A stretch of DNA of 32,381 nt from the NCBI GenBank assembly GCA_027315505.1, contig DAHUXY010000125.1, forward strand, positions 1 through 32,381. Direction: 5' to 3'. The translations under genes were made by a program, and so were the position numbers. The notes under the pieces are model-generated. The model was not told the origin of the DNA. It saw only the letters and a list, made by a program, of their open reading frames with translations, and searched no databases. Of the stretch, positions 1,115-28,959 are shown in pieces. Numbering within the stretch: the first letter of the stretch is position 1; the number at the start of each line of letters is the position of its first letter. Source of the DNA: Vulcanimicrobiota bacterium (lineage in GTDB: Bacteria; Vulcanimicrobiota; Vulcanimicrobiia; Vulcanimicrobiales; Vulcanimicrobiaceae).

Positions 1115-2541
1115 CGAACATGGTGAACGGCGCGGATTGGGCCGCGCTCGCTCCGCTGGGTATCGTCGCCGTCACCGCGCTCGTGGTGCTGCTGGTCGAT
1201 CTGGTCGCCCGCGACCACGCATCGCGCAATGCCTCGATCGCGATCGGCGTAGCCGGAACGCTGGTAGCGGCGTTCGTCTGCGCGCGGGGATACGGCATCA
1301 ACTACGCAGCCTTCGGTGGCGCGTTCGTGCAAGGTGGCTTCAGCACCGTCTTTCAGGAGATCGTCCTCGCAGCGGTGCTCGGCTCGCTCGTTCTTTTCGC
1401 CGCGATCGGCAAGGAAACGCGCGTCGCCGCCGCCGTGGCGCTGATGCTCTGGTCGGCGTGCGGCGCGATGCTCATGGCCGGTGCAGCCAGCCTCATGACG
1501 ATTTTCCTCGGACTGGAATTGCTCTCGCTCGCGCTCTACTGCTTGTGCGGCCTCTCCGACCGGCCGACCGCGCGCGAAGCCGCACTCAAGTATTTGATTC
1601 TCAGTTCGACCGCATCGGGCTTCATGCTCTACGGCATGGCGTTGCTCTTCGGCGCGAGCGGCAGCGTGCAACTCTCTGCATTGGTCGCCCCGGCGCTCGC
1701 GGTTTCGCCGCTCTATTGGGTCGGCTCGGGTTTGTTCTTCGTCGGCATCGCGTTCAAACTGAGCTTGGTCCCCTTCCATACTTGGGCGCCCGACGTGTAT
1801 GAAGGCGCGCCCTTACCCGTCACGGCGTTCATGAGCGTTGCCACCAAGGCGGGGACGCTTGCGGTATTGGCCCGCTTCATCTACGCCGCCGTACCCAGCA
1901 CGATCGCCGAAAAGCTGTTGCTGCCGATTTGGGTGATCGCTGCGATTTCGATGATCGCCGGTAACGTCGGCATGTTGGCGCAGCACGATCTCAAACGCCT
2001 GATCGCGTTCTCGGGCATCGCGCAAGTCGGCTATATCCTCACCGCGCTCGCGGGCGGATCCGCGCTCGGACTGCGCTACGCTATCTATTACCTCGTGGCG
2101 TACGCGGTCATGAATCTCGGGGCGTTCGCGATCGCCGCGACGCTATCGGGGGATGGAGAAGAAGGCTCGCGCCTAGCCAACTATCGCGGTTTGGCCAAAC
2201 GCCGCCCGTTAGCAGCCGCGTTGATGAGCGTGTTCTTGATCGCGATGGCCGGCTTGCCGCCCACCGCCGGATTTCTCGGAAAGATCTTGATCCTCTCGAG
2301 CAGCGTGAGCACCGGCTACGCGTGGCTCGGCGGCGTCCTGATCGCCGGCACGGCGATCTCGCTCTATGCGTATGCGAAGATCGTGCGCGCGATGTACGGT
2401 CGCGACGAGCACGCGCACCCGCACGGCGCCGCCCCGGCCGTGCCTCTCGCGTGGGCGAGCGCGATAATCTGCGCGGTCGTTGTGATCGTCATGGCCTTTT
2501 ATCCCCTTACGCCGAGCAATATTCTGCCGCTCGTACGATGA
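1111..2541 (+). CDS. nuoN: NADH-quinone oxidoreductase subunit N
   Basis: 476 aa multi-TM protein with KLSLVPFHTWAPDVYEGAPLPVTAFMSVATKAG and HDLKRLIAFSGIAQVGY; ATGA overlap with nuoM. Confidence 0.94.
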   Translation: MTNMVNGADWAALAPLGIVAVTALVVLLVDLVARDHASRNASIAIGVAGTLVAAFVCARGYGINYAAFGGAFVQGGFSTVFQEIVLAAVLGSLVLFAAIGKETRVAAAVALMLWSACGAMLMAGAASLMTIFLGLELLSLALYCLCGLSDRPTAREAALKYLILSSTASGFMLYGMALLFGASGSVQLSALVAPALAVSPLYWVGSGLFFVGIAFKLSLVPFHTWAPDVYEGAPLPVTAFMSVATKAGTLAVLARFIYAAVPSTIAEKLLLPIWVIAAISMIAGNVGMLAQHDLKRLIAFSGIAQVGYILTALAGGSALGLRYAIYYLVAYAVMNLGAFAIAATLSGDGEEGSRLANYRGLAKRRPLAAALMSVFLIAMAGLPPTAGFLGKILILSSSVSTGYAWLGGVLIAGTAISLYAYAKIVRAMYGRDEHAHPHGAAPAVPLAWASAIICAVVVIVMAFYPLTPSNILPLVR

Positions 2542-2954
2542 GCCAGGACTTCTTTGCGGTTTTCGGGAGCGCCGTTCGCGGTTTACGCGCACGGCTCGAC
2601 CGCGTTCTGCAGAGCCACGGCTTGCGGCTGGGGCAGTACCAGGTGCTCCGCGTTCTGTGGGATCGCGACGGCTTGACGCCGCGAGAACTCGCCGATCGGC
2701 TCGATGTCGAGATGCCGACCGTCACCCGAACCGTGCAGCGGATGGTGCGCGACGGTTTGGTACAACGCGAAGCGCACGGGTCCGACGCGCGCTCCGTCCG
2801 CATCCGGCTCACGCCCCTTGGAAACGACAAAAAGGCCGAGGTCGCTCGCTTGTTCGGCGATGAGGCCGAGCGCGCACTCACAGGATTCTCGCCGGAAGAC
2901 CGCGCGGCGTTCGTCGCATTCCTCGAACGCATCAATACCAACGTCCGGAGCTAG
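2538..2954 (+). CDS. MarR family transcriptional regulator
   Basis: 138 aa, MarR winged-helix pattern (LGQYQVLRVLWDRDGLTPRELADRLDVEMPTVTRTVQRMVRDGLVQREAHGSDARSVRIRLTPLG); ATGA overlap with the nuoN stop. Confidence 0.88.
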   Translation: MSQDFFAVFGSAVRGLRARLDRVLQSHGLRLGQYQVLRVLWDRDGLTPRELADRLDVEMPTVTRTVQRMVRDGLVQREAHGSDARSVRIRLTPLGNDKKAEVARLFGDEAERALTGFSPEDRAAFVAFLERINTNVRS

Positions 2955-2993: not shown

Positions 2994-3117
2994 CGGTTGG
3001 GGGAGCTGCGATTTTTTGGGCCTTCACAGGATGTGAACTTCAAAGCTTGCTTTGCCCAAAAAACGTAGCAGCGTTGGATTTTACAGGATGTAAAATCCAA
3101 CAGCGGTCCCCCAATCG
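2994..3117 (+). ncRNA. Candidate structured element, copy E1 (outer helix, internal multi-part helix, two C-AGGAT-G hairpins)
   Basis: P1 CGGTTGGGGGA:TCCCCCAATCG; P2 GCTGC..TTTTTTGGGC:GCCCAAAAAA..GCAGC; hairpin TTCAC-AGGAT-GTGAA (3023-3037); perfect 12-bp hairpin GTTGGATTTTAC-AGGAT-GTAAAATCCAAC (3073-3101). Same layout as 26758-26934 on the minus strand. Confidence 0.7.
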
Positions 3118-3161
3118 CGTATCCGGTCTCTCCGCCTCCGGGCTACAGCGCTAGCAGCGCC

Positions 3162-3563
3162 TCAATTCACGCGCATCGGGACGCCGCTGATGTTCGGGCG
3201 TTGCGGGCGCATCGGGGGTTGCGGCGAGGCCGGCGCTTCGACCGAGGCGGGCCAATAGCGAAGTGCGAGCGAGTACGCGAGATAGTCGTTGTACGCGTCG
3301 CAATCGTTCTGGATGGTGAAGCAGCGTACGATCCACAGCGGAATCGTAATGAGGACACCGACGCCGCTGAGCAGCGCGAGCGTCATCAGGATGCCGCGCT
3401 TGTAGTCGCCGAAATAGTACGATTCGCCGCCGACCAAGCCGAGCAGGATGGTGAGCATCAGCGCGATCGTGGGGTCCTTGGCGTAGCGCTGGTATTCATA
3501 CACGAACGTGGCCTGGGCTTCGGGGCGTAGTTCCCGGGCGAGCATCTGCGAGTACGGTGTCAT
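3162..3563 (-). CDS. TM2-domain-like small membrane protein
   Basis: MTPYSQMLARELRPEAQATFVYEYQRYAKDPTIALMLTILLGLVGGESYYFGDYKRGILMTLALLSGVG; TM2-like Gx..YFGDYKRGI between two hydrophobic segments; start chosen at 3563 rather than the longer ORF. Confidence 0.7.
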   Translation of the reverse strand: MTPYSQMLARELRPEAQATFVYEYQRYAKDPTIALMLTILLGLVGGESYYFGDYKRGILMTLALLSGVGVLITIPLWIVRCFTIQNDCDAYNDYLAYSLALRYWPASVEAPASPQPPMRPQRPNISGVPMRVN

Positions 3564-3582
3564 GGTGATCCTCCGCCGTTCA

Positions 3583-5364
3583 TTACGGTGACACGCCTCC
3601 GGGTGTTTCGCTCGGGGCGAGCAAATCGTAGGCGTCGCGAAGCTCGGCGGCGGATGGGATCGGAGCCCCGCAGAGGGTGCCGACGCAGACGTAAGCGGCC
3701 GGGCATGGGGAGCCCGGCAAGCCCGCCTCCCGAGCGCCGGCCCGGTCCAGCGTTCGCACGCTCGCGAACGGGGTGGGAAGGCGCCGCGCCGCTTCGCGGA
3801 AATCGCCGGTTTCATCCACGCTTCCCGTCACCTTGATCGTGACCTCGGGGGCGAGATAGCGCTGGACGGCTCGCACGTAGGTTGACGCGAAGGACCCGGC
3901 GGCGGCGAAGGAGCGGACGTAGAGGGCCAGGGTTCGTTCCGCGGCGGTGCGGAAGCGCGGCTCTGCGGTCATCGCGGCCAAGCGCAGCATGGCTTCGGCA
4001 AAGAGGCCGTTCTCCACGACGGGGCGATCGGGCACGTCGAGCCGGCCGAGCGTCGCTTCGATCCCGGCGTGATCGTAGACGCCGCCGTCGGGTGCGCCGA
4101 ATCGCTCGACGATGCGATCGGCGTGCGCCGCCGCGCGCTGGATGAAGCGGGCTTCCCCGGTCGCTTCGTGCAGATCGAGGAGCGCCCGCACGTAGGCGAC
4201 TTGGTCGCCGAGCAAACCGCGTACCCGGGGCGCTTCATCGGGCGCCAGAACGTGATAGAGCAGGCCTTCGGGGTCGCTCATGCGTTCGTGCAAGGCGTCG
4301 AGGGTGGCGGCACCGTGCGCGGCGAGGGTGTCGTCGTCGAGCGCGAGCGAGGCCCATGCGAAGGCCCCGGCCAGGCCCGCATTCCAGTTCGTGTAGGCTC
4401 GCCGGTCGACGAACGGCGCGGTCCGTTTCCGGCGCTCGTCCATCGGTAATGCAAAATACTCTTCGTCCGCGTCTTGGCTGCCGGCAAAAAAATGCGTTGC
4501 CGGATCCAGCAGTACCGTTTGGACGTAGCGTAGCGCGGACTGCAGGGTGGCGCGGGTATCGCCGGTCGGCGCCCAAAGCATCAATTGCGCGAGCACGCGC
4601 AAGAGGCCGCCGTGGTCCTCGGCCATTTTTTCGAAATGCGGAACCGACCAGTCACGGGTCGTGGAATAGCGGAAGAACCCGCCTTCGACGTGGTCGTACA
4701 TGCCGCCGCGCGACATCTCCCGCAGCGTCCGCGCGACCATCTCGTAAAGCCGATGCTCGCCGGTGTATCGCCACTGCGCGAGCAAGAGTTCGAGCATTTC
4801 GGGTTGCGGAAATTTCGGCGCTTCGCCGAAGCCGCCGTATTCGGCGTCGTAGCCGGCGGCGATCTCGTCCACGACGTGCGCGACCACGTTTTGATTGAGA
4901 TCTGCAACGGTTCCCGCTTCGTAGCTGCCGCTGCGCGAGCGTAGCTCCACCGCACGGGCGGCGATGCCTTCGCGTTGCTCGCGGTAGAAGCGAGCGATTT
5001 CTGCAAGCGCGCGCTGCATCTGCGGTGGCGCGAGATAGGTGGCGCCGGTGATCGTCGTGCCGTCGGCGGCGAGAAATACCGTCGTCGGCCAACCACCCAT
5101 GTTGTAACGAGCGTTGATATCGGGGCGCTCGTCGTTGTCGATGCGAACCGGTACGAAATCGCGGTTGATCGCAGCGATGATCTCCGGATCCGAATACGAC
5201 GTTTCGTCCATGACGTGGCACCAATGGCACCACACGGCGGAGATGGAAAGCAAGACCGCTTTTTCCTCGCGCTGCGCCCGGGAGAAAGCCTCCTCGCTCC
5301 AGGGCATCCATGCGATGTCGCTCGCGCGATTGGCGCGGGGTGAAAAGTGAAACTCAGTCGTCAT
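3583..5364 (-). CDS. DUF255/thioredoxin-domain-containing protein (YyaL/SPATA20-like)
   Basis: NPW-type start region then VWCHWCHVMDETSYSDPEIIAAINRDFVPVRIDNDERPDINARY..GGWPTTVFL, and GGxYDHVEGGFFRYSTTRDWSVPHFEKM; characteristic of the family. Confidence 0.93.
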   Translation of the reverse strand: MTTEFHFSPRANRASDIAWMPWSEEAFSRAQREEKAVLLSISAVWCHWCHVMDETSYSDPEIIAAINRDFVPVRIDNDERPDINARYNMGGWPTTVFLAADGTTITGATYLAPPQMQRALAEIARFYREQREGIAARAVELRSRSGSYEAGTVADLNQNVVAHVVDEIAAGYDAEYGGFGEAPKFPQPEMLELLLAQWRYTGEHRLYEMVARTLREMSRGGMYDHVEGGFFRYSTTRDWSVPHFEKMAEDHGGLLRVLAQLMLWAPTGDTRATLQSALRYVQTVLLDPATHFFAGSQDADEEYFALPMDERRKRTAPFVDRRAYTNWNAGLAGAFAWASLALDDDTLAAHGAATLDALHERMSDPEGLLYHVLAPDEAPRVRGLLGDQVAYVRALLDLHEATGEARFIQRAAAHADRIVERFGAPDGGVYDHAGIEATLGRLDVPDRPVVENGLFAEAMLRLAAMTAEPRFRTAAERTLALYVRSFAAAGSFASTYVRAVQRYLAPEVTIKVTGSVDETGDFREAARRLPTPFASVRTLDRAGAREAGLPGSPCPAAYVCVGTLCGAPIPSAAELRDAYDLLAPSETPGGVSP

Positions 5365-5641
5365 CGTCGGAAAACCCCCGTAGGAAGGATGTCCCGTAAA
5401 ACACCGCCAGGAGGGCAAAAGCCGCAAAAGTGGGGATGAGAATTGCGGTCGCGCCGGTTGCGGCGATGCCGGCGAACAGGGCGGCTAGGCCAAGGGCCAC
5501 GAACGCGTAGCGCCGATGGGTTGCCGCCGTCATACCGTACACGCTCGCGTCGTAGTACCCCCCGCCGCTGCGACTGCGGTACCAAGCCGCCGCGGCCAGG
5601 GCTACGCACAGGCCGGCGCCCAACACACTCCAGATCATCAC
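5354..5641 (-). CDS. Small hypothetical membrane protein
   Basis: 95 aa with three hydrophobic segments; 3' end overlaps the DUF255 start by 11 nt. Confidence 0.6.
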   Translation of the reverse strand: MMIWSVLGAGLCVALAAAAWYRSRSGGGYYDASVYGMTAATHRRYAFVALGLAALFAGIAATGATAILIPTFAAFALLAVFYGTSFLRGFSDDDD

Positions 5642-26596: not shown

Positions 26597-26758
26597 ATGG
26601 AAATCCTCGGCACGAATTTCTCGATCACCCTGGGCTCGTGGCGCATGCGCTTCTGCGTCGCCATCGAAGACGTCGACGCCCCCGAACCCGCGAAGCCGCC
26701 GGCACCGCACCGCGTACGAGTCGTGCGGGACGACAACTATCAGCGCAGAAACGCATAG
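26597..26758 (+). CDS. Short ORF (53 aa) at the end of the GntR-ABC operon
   Basis: MEILGTNFSITLGSWRMRFCVAIEDVDAPEPAKPPAPHRVRVVRDDNYQRRNA; ATG 3 nt after the permease stop; codon usage GC3-rich. Confidence 0.5.
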   Translation: MEILGTNFSITLGSWRMRFCVAIEDVDAPEPAKPPAPHRVRVVRDDNYQRRNA

Positions 26759-26934
26759 GCTAACGCGGCCGGGAAAGGGGAGCGGTGATTGGGGAACCGT
26801 TCGTCAGCGCGCATCCTGCGCGCTTCCTACTCGTATGTTTTTGTGCAACATTCAAAGGAAGTTCGACATCCTGTCGATTGCACAAAAATCACACGTTCCC
26901 CAATCACCGCACCCCTTTCCCGGCCGCGTTAGCC
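26758..26934 (-). ncRNA. Candidate structured element, copy E2 (minus-strand orientation), with extended outer stem
   Basis: 40-bp arms 26758-26797 and 26895-26934 with one mismatch; inner helix TTTTTGTGC:GCACAAAAA (26838-26846/26880-26888); hairpins TCGAC-ATCCT-GTCGA (26863-26877) and AGCGCGC-ATCCT-GCGCGCT (26806-26824) on + = AGGAT loops on -; same layout as E1. Confidence 0.7.
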
Positions 26935-26947
26935 GACCGCGATGGAG

Positions 26948-28105
26948 CTAAACCACGAAGCCGCTAGGGATTGCCGCGCGGCTGAACGTGAAGCCGCCCT
27001 TGCCGATCGTATAGAGATAGATGTTCGCTAAGATTGCGTCGCCGTTGAAGTTGAACGAATATTGGCCGACGATCGTCGAGAAGCCCGACGGCTGCTCCTG
27101 GATCGTGTTGAGCAGCGTGAAGCGCGTGGTAGCGTTACTACGCTGCGAGGCGAAAATCAGAAGTTGCGCCGCGGCGTATCCGTACGCCGAGAACGCATTG
27201 ACCGAGCCGACCTCGCCCTCGAAATCGCGCAAAAGTTGGAAGATCGATGGGATACGATCGAGTGGCGGCATGACCGATGCTACCGTTGCGCCGTCGAGAA
27301 ACTTCGCGTACGTGTCGATGGTGGATTGGTTGTAGAAGCCATCGCTGGCGCTGAACGCGCCCGTGTAGCCCTCGAGGCGTAGCGCTTCGACCACGGGGCC
27401 GAGATCGCTCGGCTTGCCGGCGAGAAAGATGTGCGTGGGCTTGAACGCCAAGCACTCTTTGGAGGCGGCCGCGGGATCGATGTGATTCTCGTCGATCGTC
27501 ACGACCGCGGCATCGTGATGGCCGCTCTTTGCATACTGCACGAAGCCGCGCGCGACATCCGGGCCGTAGGCGCCGTTGGTTGTGAGCGCGACGGCGCTGA
27601 CGGCGCCGTGCTGCGGCAGGAGCGTGCGAGCCATGAGTTGGCCTTCGGTCGAATCTTTGGTCGGCAGGCGAAAGATATTGCGGTAGCCGCGCGAGGTGAT
27701 GACGTCGGCCGTCACCGTCGGTACGACGATGGCGAAGTTTGCGTTGGCGTACGCCGGGAGCGCGGTAAGCGTGACGGGAGCGGTGAGGTTGCCGACCATC
27801 CCGATGATGCTCGGATCGGCCTGCGCGATCTGCGCGTTGGTGACCGCGACCTGGCCGTTGTTTTGGTCGTCGAACGATCGGACGCCGTACGATTGCCGGA
27901 GCGAGACGGTAAAGCGATTGGTCTCGTCGACCGCGGCCTGTACGCCTTGCACGACGTTTTTGCCGAACGACGCAAGAGGCCCCGAGAGCGGAACGCTCAC
28001 GCCGATCGTGAGCTGTTGAAGCACCGGCCCGGTAAACTGCGCGCGCGCGATGCGCGGCGCGAGCGTGGCGGCCGCACCGGCCGCGAGAAAGGCTCGGCGG
28101 CGCAT
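26948..28105 (-). CDS. ABC transporter substrate-binding protein (branched-chain amino-acid/Peripla_BP_6 type), Tat-like signal
   Basis: MRRRAFLAAGAAATLAPRIARAQ signal; LTIGVSVPLSGPLASFGKNVVQGVQAAVDETN; VGNLTAPVTLTALPAYANANFAIVVPTVTAD. Confidence 0.88.
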   Translation of the reverse strand: MRRRAFLAAGAAATLAPRIARAQFTGPVLQQLTIGVSVPLSGPLASFGKNVVQGVQAAVDETNRFTVSLRQSYGVRSFDDQNNGQVAVTNAQIAQADPSIIGMVGNLTAPVTLTALPAYANANFAIVVPTVTADVITSRGYRNIFRLPTKDSTEGQLMARTLLPQHGAVSAVALTTNGAYGPDVARGFVQYAKSGHHDAAVVTIDENHIDPAAASKECLAFKPTHIFLAGKPSDLGPVVEALRLEGYTGAFSASDGFYNQSTIDTYAKFLDGATVASVMPPLDRIPSIFQLLRDFEGEVGSVNAFSAYGYAAAQLLIFASQRSNATTRFTLLNTIQEQPSGFSTIVGQYSFNFNGDAILANIYLYTIGKGGFTFSRAAIPSGFVV

Positions 28106-28959
28106 CAGCGGGTGAGGTATCCTGCGACCGTCGTTCCGAGAAAGACGACCGAGAAGCCCATGTTGGCGGTAAAGACCCGTTCGTTGAGCACGAAGAGATT
28201 CTCCGATCGATCGAACAGAGCGTTTTCGTAAACGGCGAGGCTCAGAGCAGCTAAGGCCCCGAGATAATAGGGCCATTGAACGCCGCCCGCGATGCCCGCC
28301 AGCACGAGCAACGCGAGCATCCCTAGGTGGAGCGCGATGGGTAGCCAGCGTCCGCTGCGCTCTCCGAAGCGTGCCGGTAGCGAATTGATGCCTTGTTCGC
28401 GATCGGTCGGAAGATCCATCAGCGCGTAGATGACGTCGAATCCGGCAACCCATAGCGTGACCGCGAGAAAGACCAGAATCGCGCTCCAACTCATGTGCCC
28501 GGTGACGCCGATGTAAGCGCCGAGCGGTGCGAGGCCATCGACCGCGCCTAAGACGAAATGCACCAGCCATGTGAAGCGCTTGCAGAGCGGGTACACGAGC
28601 ACGCCGAGCGCGGCGATCGGCATGAGCTTCACGCAGAGCGGGTTGAGCATCCACGCCGAGAACAGCAAGAGCGCGAATCCGAGCACGATGGCCCAGATCA
28701 TTACCGAGGGTGCGAGCGTCCCGCTCGCGAGCGCTCGCCGGGCGGTGCGCGGATTGCGAGCGTCGATATCGCGATCGAAGTAACGGTTGGCGGCCATCGC
28801 CGCGGTGCGCGCGCCCAAGACGGCGAGCGTAATCCAGAGCAGCGCGTGCCACGGCGGCAGCCCTTTGACGCCGAGTACCGCACCCACGTAGGCAAACGGC
28901 AGCGCGAACAGCGTGTGTTCGATGCGGATCTCGCGCAGGAACAGCGAGAGCGTCTTCAT
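28105..28959 (-). CDS. ubiA: UbiA family prenyltransferase
   Basis: IRIEHTLFALPFAYVGAVLG; AANRYFDRDIDARNPRTARRAL (first Asp-rich motif); DVIYALMDLPTDREQGINSLPARFG. Confidence 0.92.
   Translation of the reverse strand: MKTLSLFLREIRIEHTLFALPFAYVGAVLGVKGLPPWHALLWITLAVLGARTAAMAANRYFDRDIDARNPRTARRALASGTLAPSVMIWAIVLGFALLLFSAWMLNPLCVKLMPIAALGVLVYPLCKRFTWLVHFVLGAVDGLAPLGAYIGVTGHMSWSAILVFLAVTLWVAGFDVIYALMDLPTDREQGINSLPARFGERSGRWLPIALHLGMLALLVLAGIAGGVQWPYYLGALAALSLAVYENALFDRSENLFVLNERVFTANMGFSVVFLGTTVAGYLTR

Follow-up and report, generated by a model that had tools for sequence, protein, structure and literature searches.

Do the two branched inverted repeats that lie between genes in this stretch of DNA belong together, and what keeps their structure while much of their sequence changes? 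The window, by which we mean the whole stretch of 32,381 nucleotides analysed here, comes from a MAG (G000) whose 291 contigs total 2.44 Mb. The first repeat, E1, lies on its plus strand behind a gene for a MarR-family regulator, and its parts and neighbours are as follows.

2994-3117, plus strand: whole element E1, of the E1 subfamily; covariance model R1 matches 2998-3118 with 96.1 bits (E = 1.2e-21)
2994-3004, plus strand: 5' strand of outer helix P1, CGGTTGGGGGA, read from the sequence and paired with 3107-3117; P1 covaries family-wide
3107-3117, plus strand: 3' strand of outer helix P1, TCCCCCAATCG, read from the sequence
3005-3022, plus strand: 5' strand of the long arm P2, paired with 3054-3072; supported by sequence, fold and family covariation
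3023-3041, plus strand: hairpin 1, TTCAC-AGGAT-GTGAA, and the conserved ACTTC; the family loop is GGA in 105 of 114 distinct copies
3054-3072, plus strand: 3' strand of P2, running into the junction motif AGYA, whose Y pairs with the R of the 3' RCG
3073-3101, plus strand: hairpin 2, 12 bp with loop AGGAT; supported by sequence, fold and loop counts
2322-2954, plus strand: MarR-family regulator gene (PF01047, E = 1.1e-14), with its stop codon about 40 nt before E1
3162-3815, minus strand: convergent neighbour gene with a weak TM2 domain (PF05154, below cut-off)

The second repeat, E2, is read on the minus strand.

26785-26902, minus strand: core of E2, of the E2 subfamily; 132.8 bits (E = 5e-31) with R1 and 109 bits with a second model, R2
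26758-26797, minus strand: 3' locus-specific arm with P1, half of a 40-nt inverted repeat, 98% complementary to 26895-26934
26895-26934, minus strand: 5' locus-specific arm with P1, the other half of that repeat
26863-26877, minus strand: hairpin 1, TCGAC-AGGAT-GTCGA, read from the sequence
26806-26824, minus strand: hairpin 2, AGCGCGC-AGGAT-GCGCGCT, with GTAG and a GA/GA internal mismatch ahead of it; helix 6 of the alignment
26948-28852, minus strand: gene of the periplasmic binding protein family (PF13458, E = 2.4e-27), running into the 5' side of E2

All the helices that the original prediction had named for E1 and E2 are present at their coordinates. E1 folds at -69.7 kcal/mol (z = -5.4) and E2, taken with its arms, at -132.9 kcal/mol (z = -15.0), and in both cases every shuffle folds worse. 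The loop word ACAGGATGT occurs three times in the 32-kb window, where 0.07 occurrences are expected, and all three lie inside E1 or E2. E2 had been described as a diverged copy of E1; the two do share a family, but they represent two subfamilies that coexist in the genome. The outer helix proposed for E2 likewise exists, but it is really the 40-bp inverted repeat listed above. The outer helix of E1, at only about 11 bp, is unusual within the family.

Further copies, which had been suggested as something to seek with a covariance model, were found both in this genome and in its relatives. The first came from pattern searches, and R1, then built from 15 copies, detected 30 in G000, 36 in the one congeneric genome compared (G001), and the element in 36 of 100 relatives. 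R2, searched in genomes at least 85% complete, detected 1-41 copies per genome in 47 of the 71 genomes of the order (families f1 and f2) and no copy in 12 genomes of the sister family f3. Copy number varies from 1 to 14 within one genus, and genera g8 and g24 are wholly devoid of the element, which is therefore dispensable. These searches show that E1 and E2 are members of a previously uncatalogued family of structured repeats, specific to one order of Eremiobacterota, with a core of about 120 nt and arms of 25-45 nt. A protein scan for nuoD assigned the group to Candidatus Eremiobacterota, an uncultured phylum of bacteria. No named family had been recognised at the outset, and Rfam 15 indeed gave no match at the gathering score, only sub-threshold look-alikes among microRNA hairpins. 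An exact-pattern scan of named genomes, with a pattern that was probably too strict, gave no match, no plasmid or phage match was obtained, and two pattern matches in viral contigs were coincidences within coding sequence. Literature on the motif together with CsrA, and on Eremiobacterota together with csrA or repeats, yielded nothing relevant.

The element is a three-way junction in which the outer helix P1 encloses the long arm P2 and hairpin 2. P2 comprises a T-rich/A-rich stretch, a bulged A, hairpin 1 and the segment ACTTC, and hairpin 2 is flanked by AGYAG before it and RCG after it, Y and R being a covarying pair. RNAalifold recovered this junction unaided, from an alignment that had been fitted to R1. 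In the 53-sequence alignment 95.0% of cells are paired, and for 34 of the 35 pairs there are copies with both sides changed. The junction columns 84-85 pair with 120-121 in 100% of copies, and both sides of the pair 85-120 have changed in 12 of them. The covariation expected of a structured element was found well above background, with a score of 0.843 against 0.226 for column shuffles and at most 0.142 for slid controls, so that the family behaves as a conserved structured element. Both hairpin loops have the form C-A(N)GGAN-G; the stems below them vary freely, but the C-G pair that closes the loop is almost invariant. In hairpin 2 the loop carries GGA in 92 of 120 copies, CGA being a common variant outside the window's own genus. 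Most copies have GTAG or GCAG ahead of this hairpin, yet it is one arm of a 120-nt junction.

Pairing-preserving changes had been read as evidence for selection on structure. Such selection is supported, but these changes do not prove it, because the two arms change in concert, indels included, as template switching would produce. Better evidence of selection is the comparison of core with arms between species. At the 15 sites common to G000 and G001 the core has 20 mismatches in 1697, an identity of 98.8%, whereas both arms are 84% identical and the flanking blocks mostly 88-96%. Orthologous copies group together in the tree, which means that no genome-wide homogenisation of the copies is under way. 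The same site was occupied in G001 for 20 of the 24 copies tested, E1 and E2 included, although at these two the G001 contigs end inside or beside the element. These comparisons are the main evidence that the core is constrained in place, and the element is probably functional.

The arms behave in another way. Beyond P1 they are inverted repeats private to each locus, and between G000 and G001 they show 57 positions with double changes that leave the pairing intact in either species, against 51 other changes (register shifts counted), their indels being matched on both sides. The core has turned round between unmoved flanks at L077/L100 and L078/L097; the remaining candidate flips are located at contig ends, where assembly may have produced them. 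Such flips between sister species suggest that it matters little which way the element faces the gene. Polymerase template switching is known to homogenise arms and to invert the spacer (PMC8604942), and it can also create and maintain hairpin stems (PMC8794818). Concerted arm change together with flipped cores is the signature of this process, and compensatory change in the arms is consequently weak evidence for selection. Insertion into pre-existing terminator hairpins was rejected, since stems of this length are otherwise nearly absent, with just 4 other strong hairpins in 287 kb. One copy at a contig end, L070, shows a 109-bp inverted repeat of which only the inner arm was counted; comparison with the congener suggests that its outermost part is an assembly fold-back.

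The position relative to genes was determined at 115 loci with a gene on both sides, orthologous pairs included, the genes being called by a simple codon-usage script and not by a standard gene finder. At these loci the neighbours are convergent in 57 cases, co-directional in 56 and divergent in 2, and in 96 of the 115 the stop codon of the 3'-side gene faces the element, at a median distance of 31.5 nt. In the window's own genus 31 of 43 loci are convergent. The element is sometimes found inside operons, such as the nuo operon, and the intergenic sites nuoD/nuoE, nuoF/nuoG and pyrD/pyrF (named by eye from the protein sequences) recur across genera. At nuoD/nuoE the two genes are split by the element in L124 and overlap without it in the close relative L174, so copies do come or go over longer times. 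No T-run follows the hairpins on either strand, and no enrichment of a sigma-70-type promoter was seen ahead of the element.

Insertions of the IS110 family break the element at one fixed point in a hairpin loop, in hairpin 1 at three G000 loci (L015:396-1358, minus strand, with junctions at L015, L028 and L029) and in hairpin 2 at three G001 loci (L090:13899, L107:10155 and L112:2631), where the transposase fragment scores below the Pfam cut-off. Bridge-RNA-type insertion sequences use the element as a landing site, and REPs are likewise hit by insertion sequences (PMC1525189).

Which strand folds can be asked of the copies themselves. In 109 of 126 copies the better fold belongs to the strand whose loops read A(N)GGA, here called the loop strand, and in 12 to its complement; the arms of the loop strand hold 120 G-U pairs against 45 A-C. 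This bias holds in every gene context, whichever way the neighbours point, and favours a folded single strand, of RNA or of single-stranded DNA, over a double-stranded cruciform. In other genera the loop strand is mostly antisense to the adjacent gene (37 against 8 co-directional loci), so that at 37 of 72 loci the gene's transcript would contain the complement of the loop strand and not the loop strand itself. RNA of the loop strand at these loci would require an unseen promoter, given that no sigma-70-type promoter is enriched ahead of the element, and antisense placement with neither a promoter nor a terminator signal is the main difficulty for an RNA reading. A bias towards one replication strand was considered and rejected, as third-position skew shows none (12 vs 10); in 19 of 22 cases, the loop strand runs against the direction of most local genes.

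The explanation we prefer, tentatively and at somewhat less than an even chance, is that a REP/ERIC-like repeat has become established at gene ends as a structured RNA, is read by a putative RNA-binding protein, and has had its arms perfected by template switching. The copies would go back to an old non-autonomous repeat of REP/ERIC type that once spread through the genome and is now held at its sites by a host function of the core. The folding strand would be the loop strand, and its RNA would fold, at the ends of transcripts and between cistrons, into a highly stable three-way-junction domain, which the putative protein may recognise through both GGA loops. Such a domain could block 3'-to-5' exonucleases or uncouple neighbouring cistrons, effects for which REP elements are known. 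Template switching at the hairpin during replication would be the main process that builds the outer arms and keeps them perfect, leaving arms unique to each locus and changing in pairs, and a core sometimes flipped. A bolder version, speculative and in our judgement improbable, makes the family a dispersed RNA regulon: dozens of gene ends would share the same GGA-loop junction RNA and one putative RNA-binding reader, CsrA in some lineages and another protein where csrA is absent, while template switching rebuilds the stem at each site.

A folded strand could also be DNA. The element might be a single-stranded mobile element, live or relict, whose loop strand, through its conserved loops and GYAG-like foot, is recognised by a recombinase, host function being secondary or absent. 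Precedents for recognition of a folded strand are TnpA-REP on REPs and IntI on attC. A strand asymmetry independent of gene direction fits this account, as do the multi-copy dispersal with variable copy number within one genus, the presence and absence at nuoD/nuoE among close relatives, and the G[T/C]AG foot that precedes an imperfect hairpin containing a GA/GA mismatch, an arrangement like that of REPs (PMC8266576). We nevertheless regard it as unlikely, if deserving of weight, because a Y1 (HUH) transposase was found in none of the 10 tested genomes and in only 4 of family f1, which are not the main carriers; the Y1 loci have no element beside them; 20 of the 24 copies stand at the same site in the congener; and a parked copy should not hold a 98.8% identical core. 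On the transposase findings, membership of REP/RAYT is rejected as well. Little weight falls on a double-stranded action, by a cruciform or a protein-binding palindrome that would absorb supercoils behind genes or bind a nucleoid protein or topoisomerase: the inverted repeats are very long and near-perfect and convergent placement prevails in the window's genus, but an asymmetry of wobble pairs is unexpected if both strands extrude together, and the conserved single-stranded loops and junction require a folded strand.

Alternatively, the loops may name their own reader. Each copy has two ANGGA loops, and the copies could form a dispersed CsrA-binding (Csr/Rsm) module that jointly titrates CsrA or brings it to transcript ends. 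The C-A(N)GGAN-G loops match the form of the high-affinity site, a hexaloop ANGGAX (PMC4005645); furthermore, the congener has csrA with fliW and flagellin, and csrA is present in 63 of the 71 genomes of the order. The element, however, occurs in 42 of the 63 genomes with csrA and in 5 of the 8 without it, which is no association, and CsrA as a general reader is not supported. G000, with about 30 copies, yielded neither csrA nor the congener's fliW-csrA-flagellin region (gaps in the MAG soften both absences), and its cores are no more changed than those of G001 even so. Since, in addition, hairpin 2 often reads CGA in other genera and Rfam gives no CsrB or RsmX/Y/Z match, we think this module quite improbable. 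That these are ordinary bidirectional terminators sharing a core by chance is scarcely credible: placement behind stop codons and between convergent genes would suit them, but the hairpins lack the T-run that, with a G+C hairpin, makes an intrinsic terminator, other terminator-like hairpins are far shorter and rare, and the core is a conserved family that occurs also inside operons.

Among known systems, ERIC and integron attC were compared with the element by their described features. attC sites keep their structure as sequence varies, lie just behind genes and have one folded strand; the element shares all three properties, but it is a three-way junction where attC is a single hairpin, and no cassette array was seen. 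ERIC/SLS families (PMC2267715) resemble it in being about 120 nt long, intergenic and strongly folded, with no transposase of their own and tens of copies, and the element is indeed multi-copy, intergenic, non-coding and strongly folded, as ERIC- and MITE-like repeats are; it differs in stems that covary across a whole order, in arms that differ completely between copies, and in having no Rfam match. With REPs and BIMEs it shares dispersal as extragenic palindromes behind genes and between cistrons (PMC8266576, PMC12306157), a GTAG-like foot before an imperfect hairpin and its use as a favoured landing site of insertion sequences (PMC8266576, PMC12306157, PMC1525189), but it is three times longer, is a three-way junction with locus-specific arms, and has freely covarying stems with no shared consensus as in REP. 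Csr/Rsm RNAs (CsrB, RsmX/Y/Z) have the same A(N)GGAN hairpin loops on C-G closed stems (PMC4005645); they are, however, one or a few sRNA genes, whereas the element is dispersed at gene ends with only two sites each, has no Rfam match, and is present in genomes where csrA was not found.

The family adds an order-wide structured repeat with direct evidence of constraint in place, and no described family of this kind was found for the phylum Eremiobacterota. A frozen core beside arms that change in pairs, at dozens of loci, is a natural case in which compensatory change can be separated from selection, and covariation as a sign of function can thus be tested directly against template switching. 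If the GGA loops are indeed read by a protein, the copies would constitute a distributed post-transcriptional network, a form for which we know of no precedent.

Some further observations concern the surroundings of the element. The congener's fliW-csrA-flagellin cluster lies at L168:3379-4235 and 4342-5625; no counterpart was found in G000, by loss or by a gap in the MAG, and G000 has another flagellin gene (L170/L172). Many contigs of both genomes end less than about 300 nt from an element (for example C118, C142, C194 and C45 of G000, and C36 and C43 of G001), so that short-read assemblies seem to break at the elements. At L060:1318/1501, L148:1601/1843 and L055:259/1501 two elements face opposite ways, separated by about 0.1-1.1 kb. 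A reduced copy at nuoD/nuoE (L175:6740-6828, minus strand) has kept hairpin 2, with an AGGAC loop, and the AGCAG/GAGCG foot, but lacks most of the long arm. Finally, a second short repeat, TGTCATCCTGAGC...GTCGAAGGA (L124:2700-2800, L173 and L175), accompanies the element or stands by itself between nuoD and nuoE.
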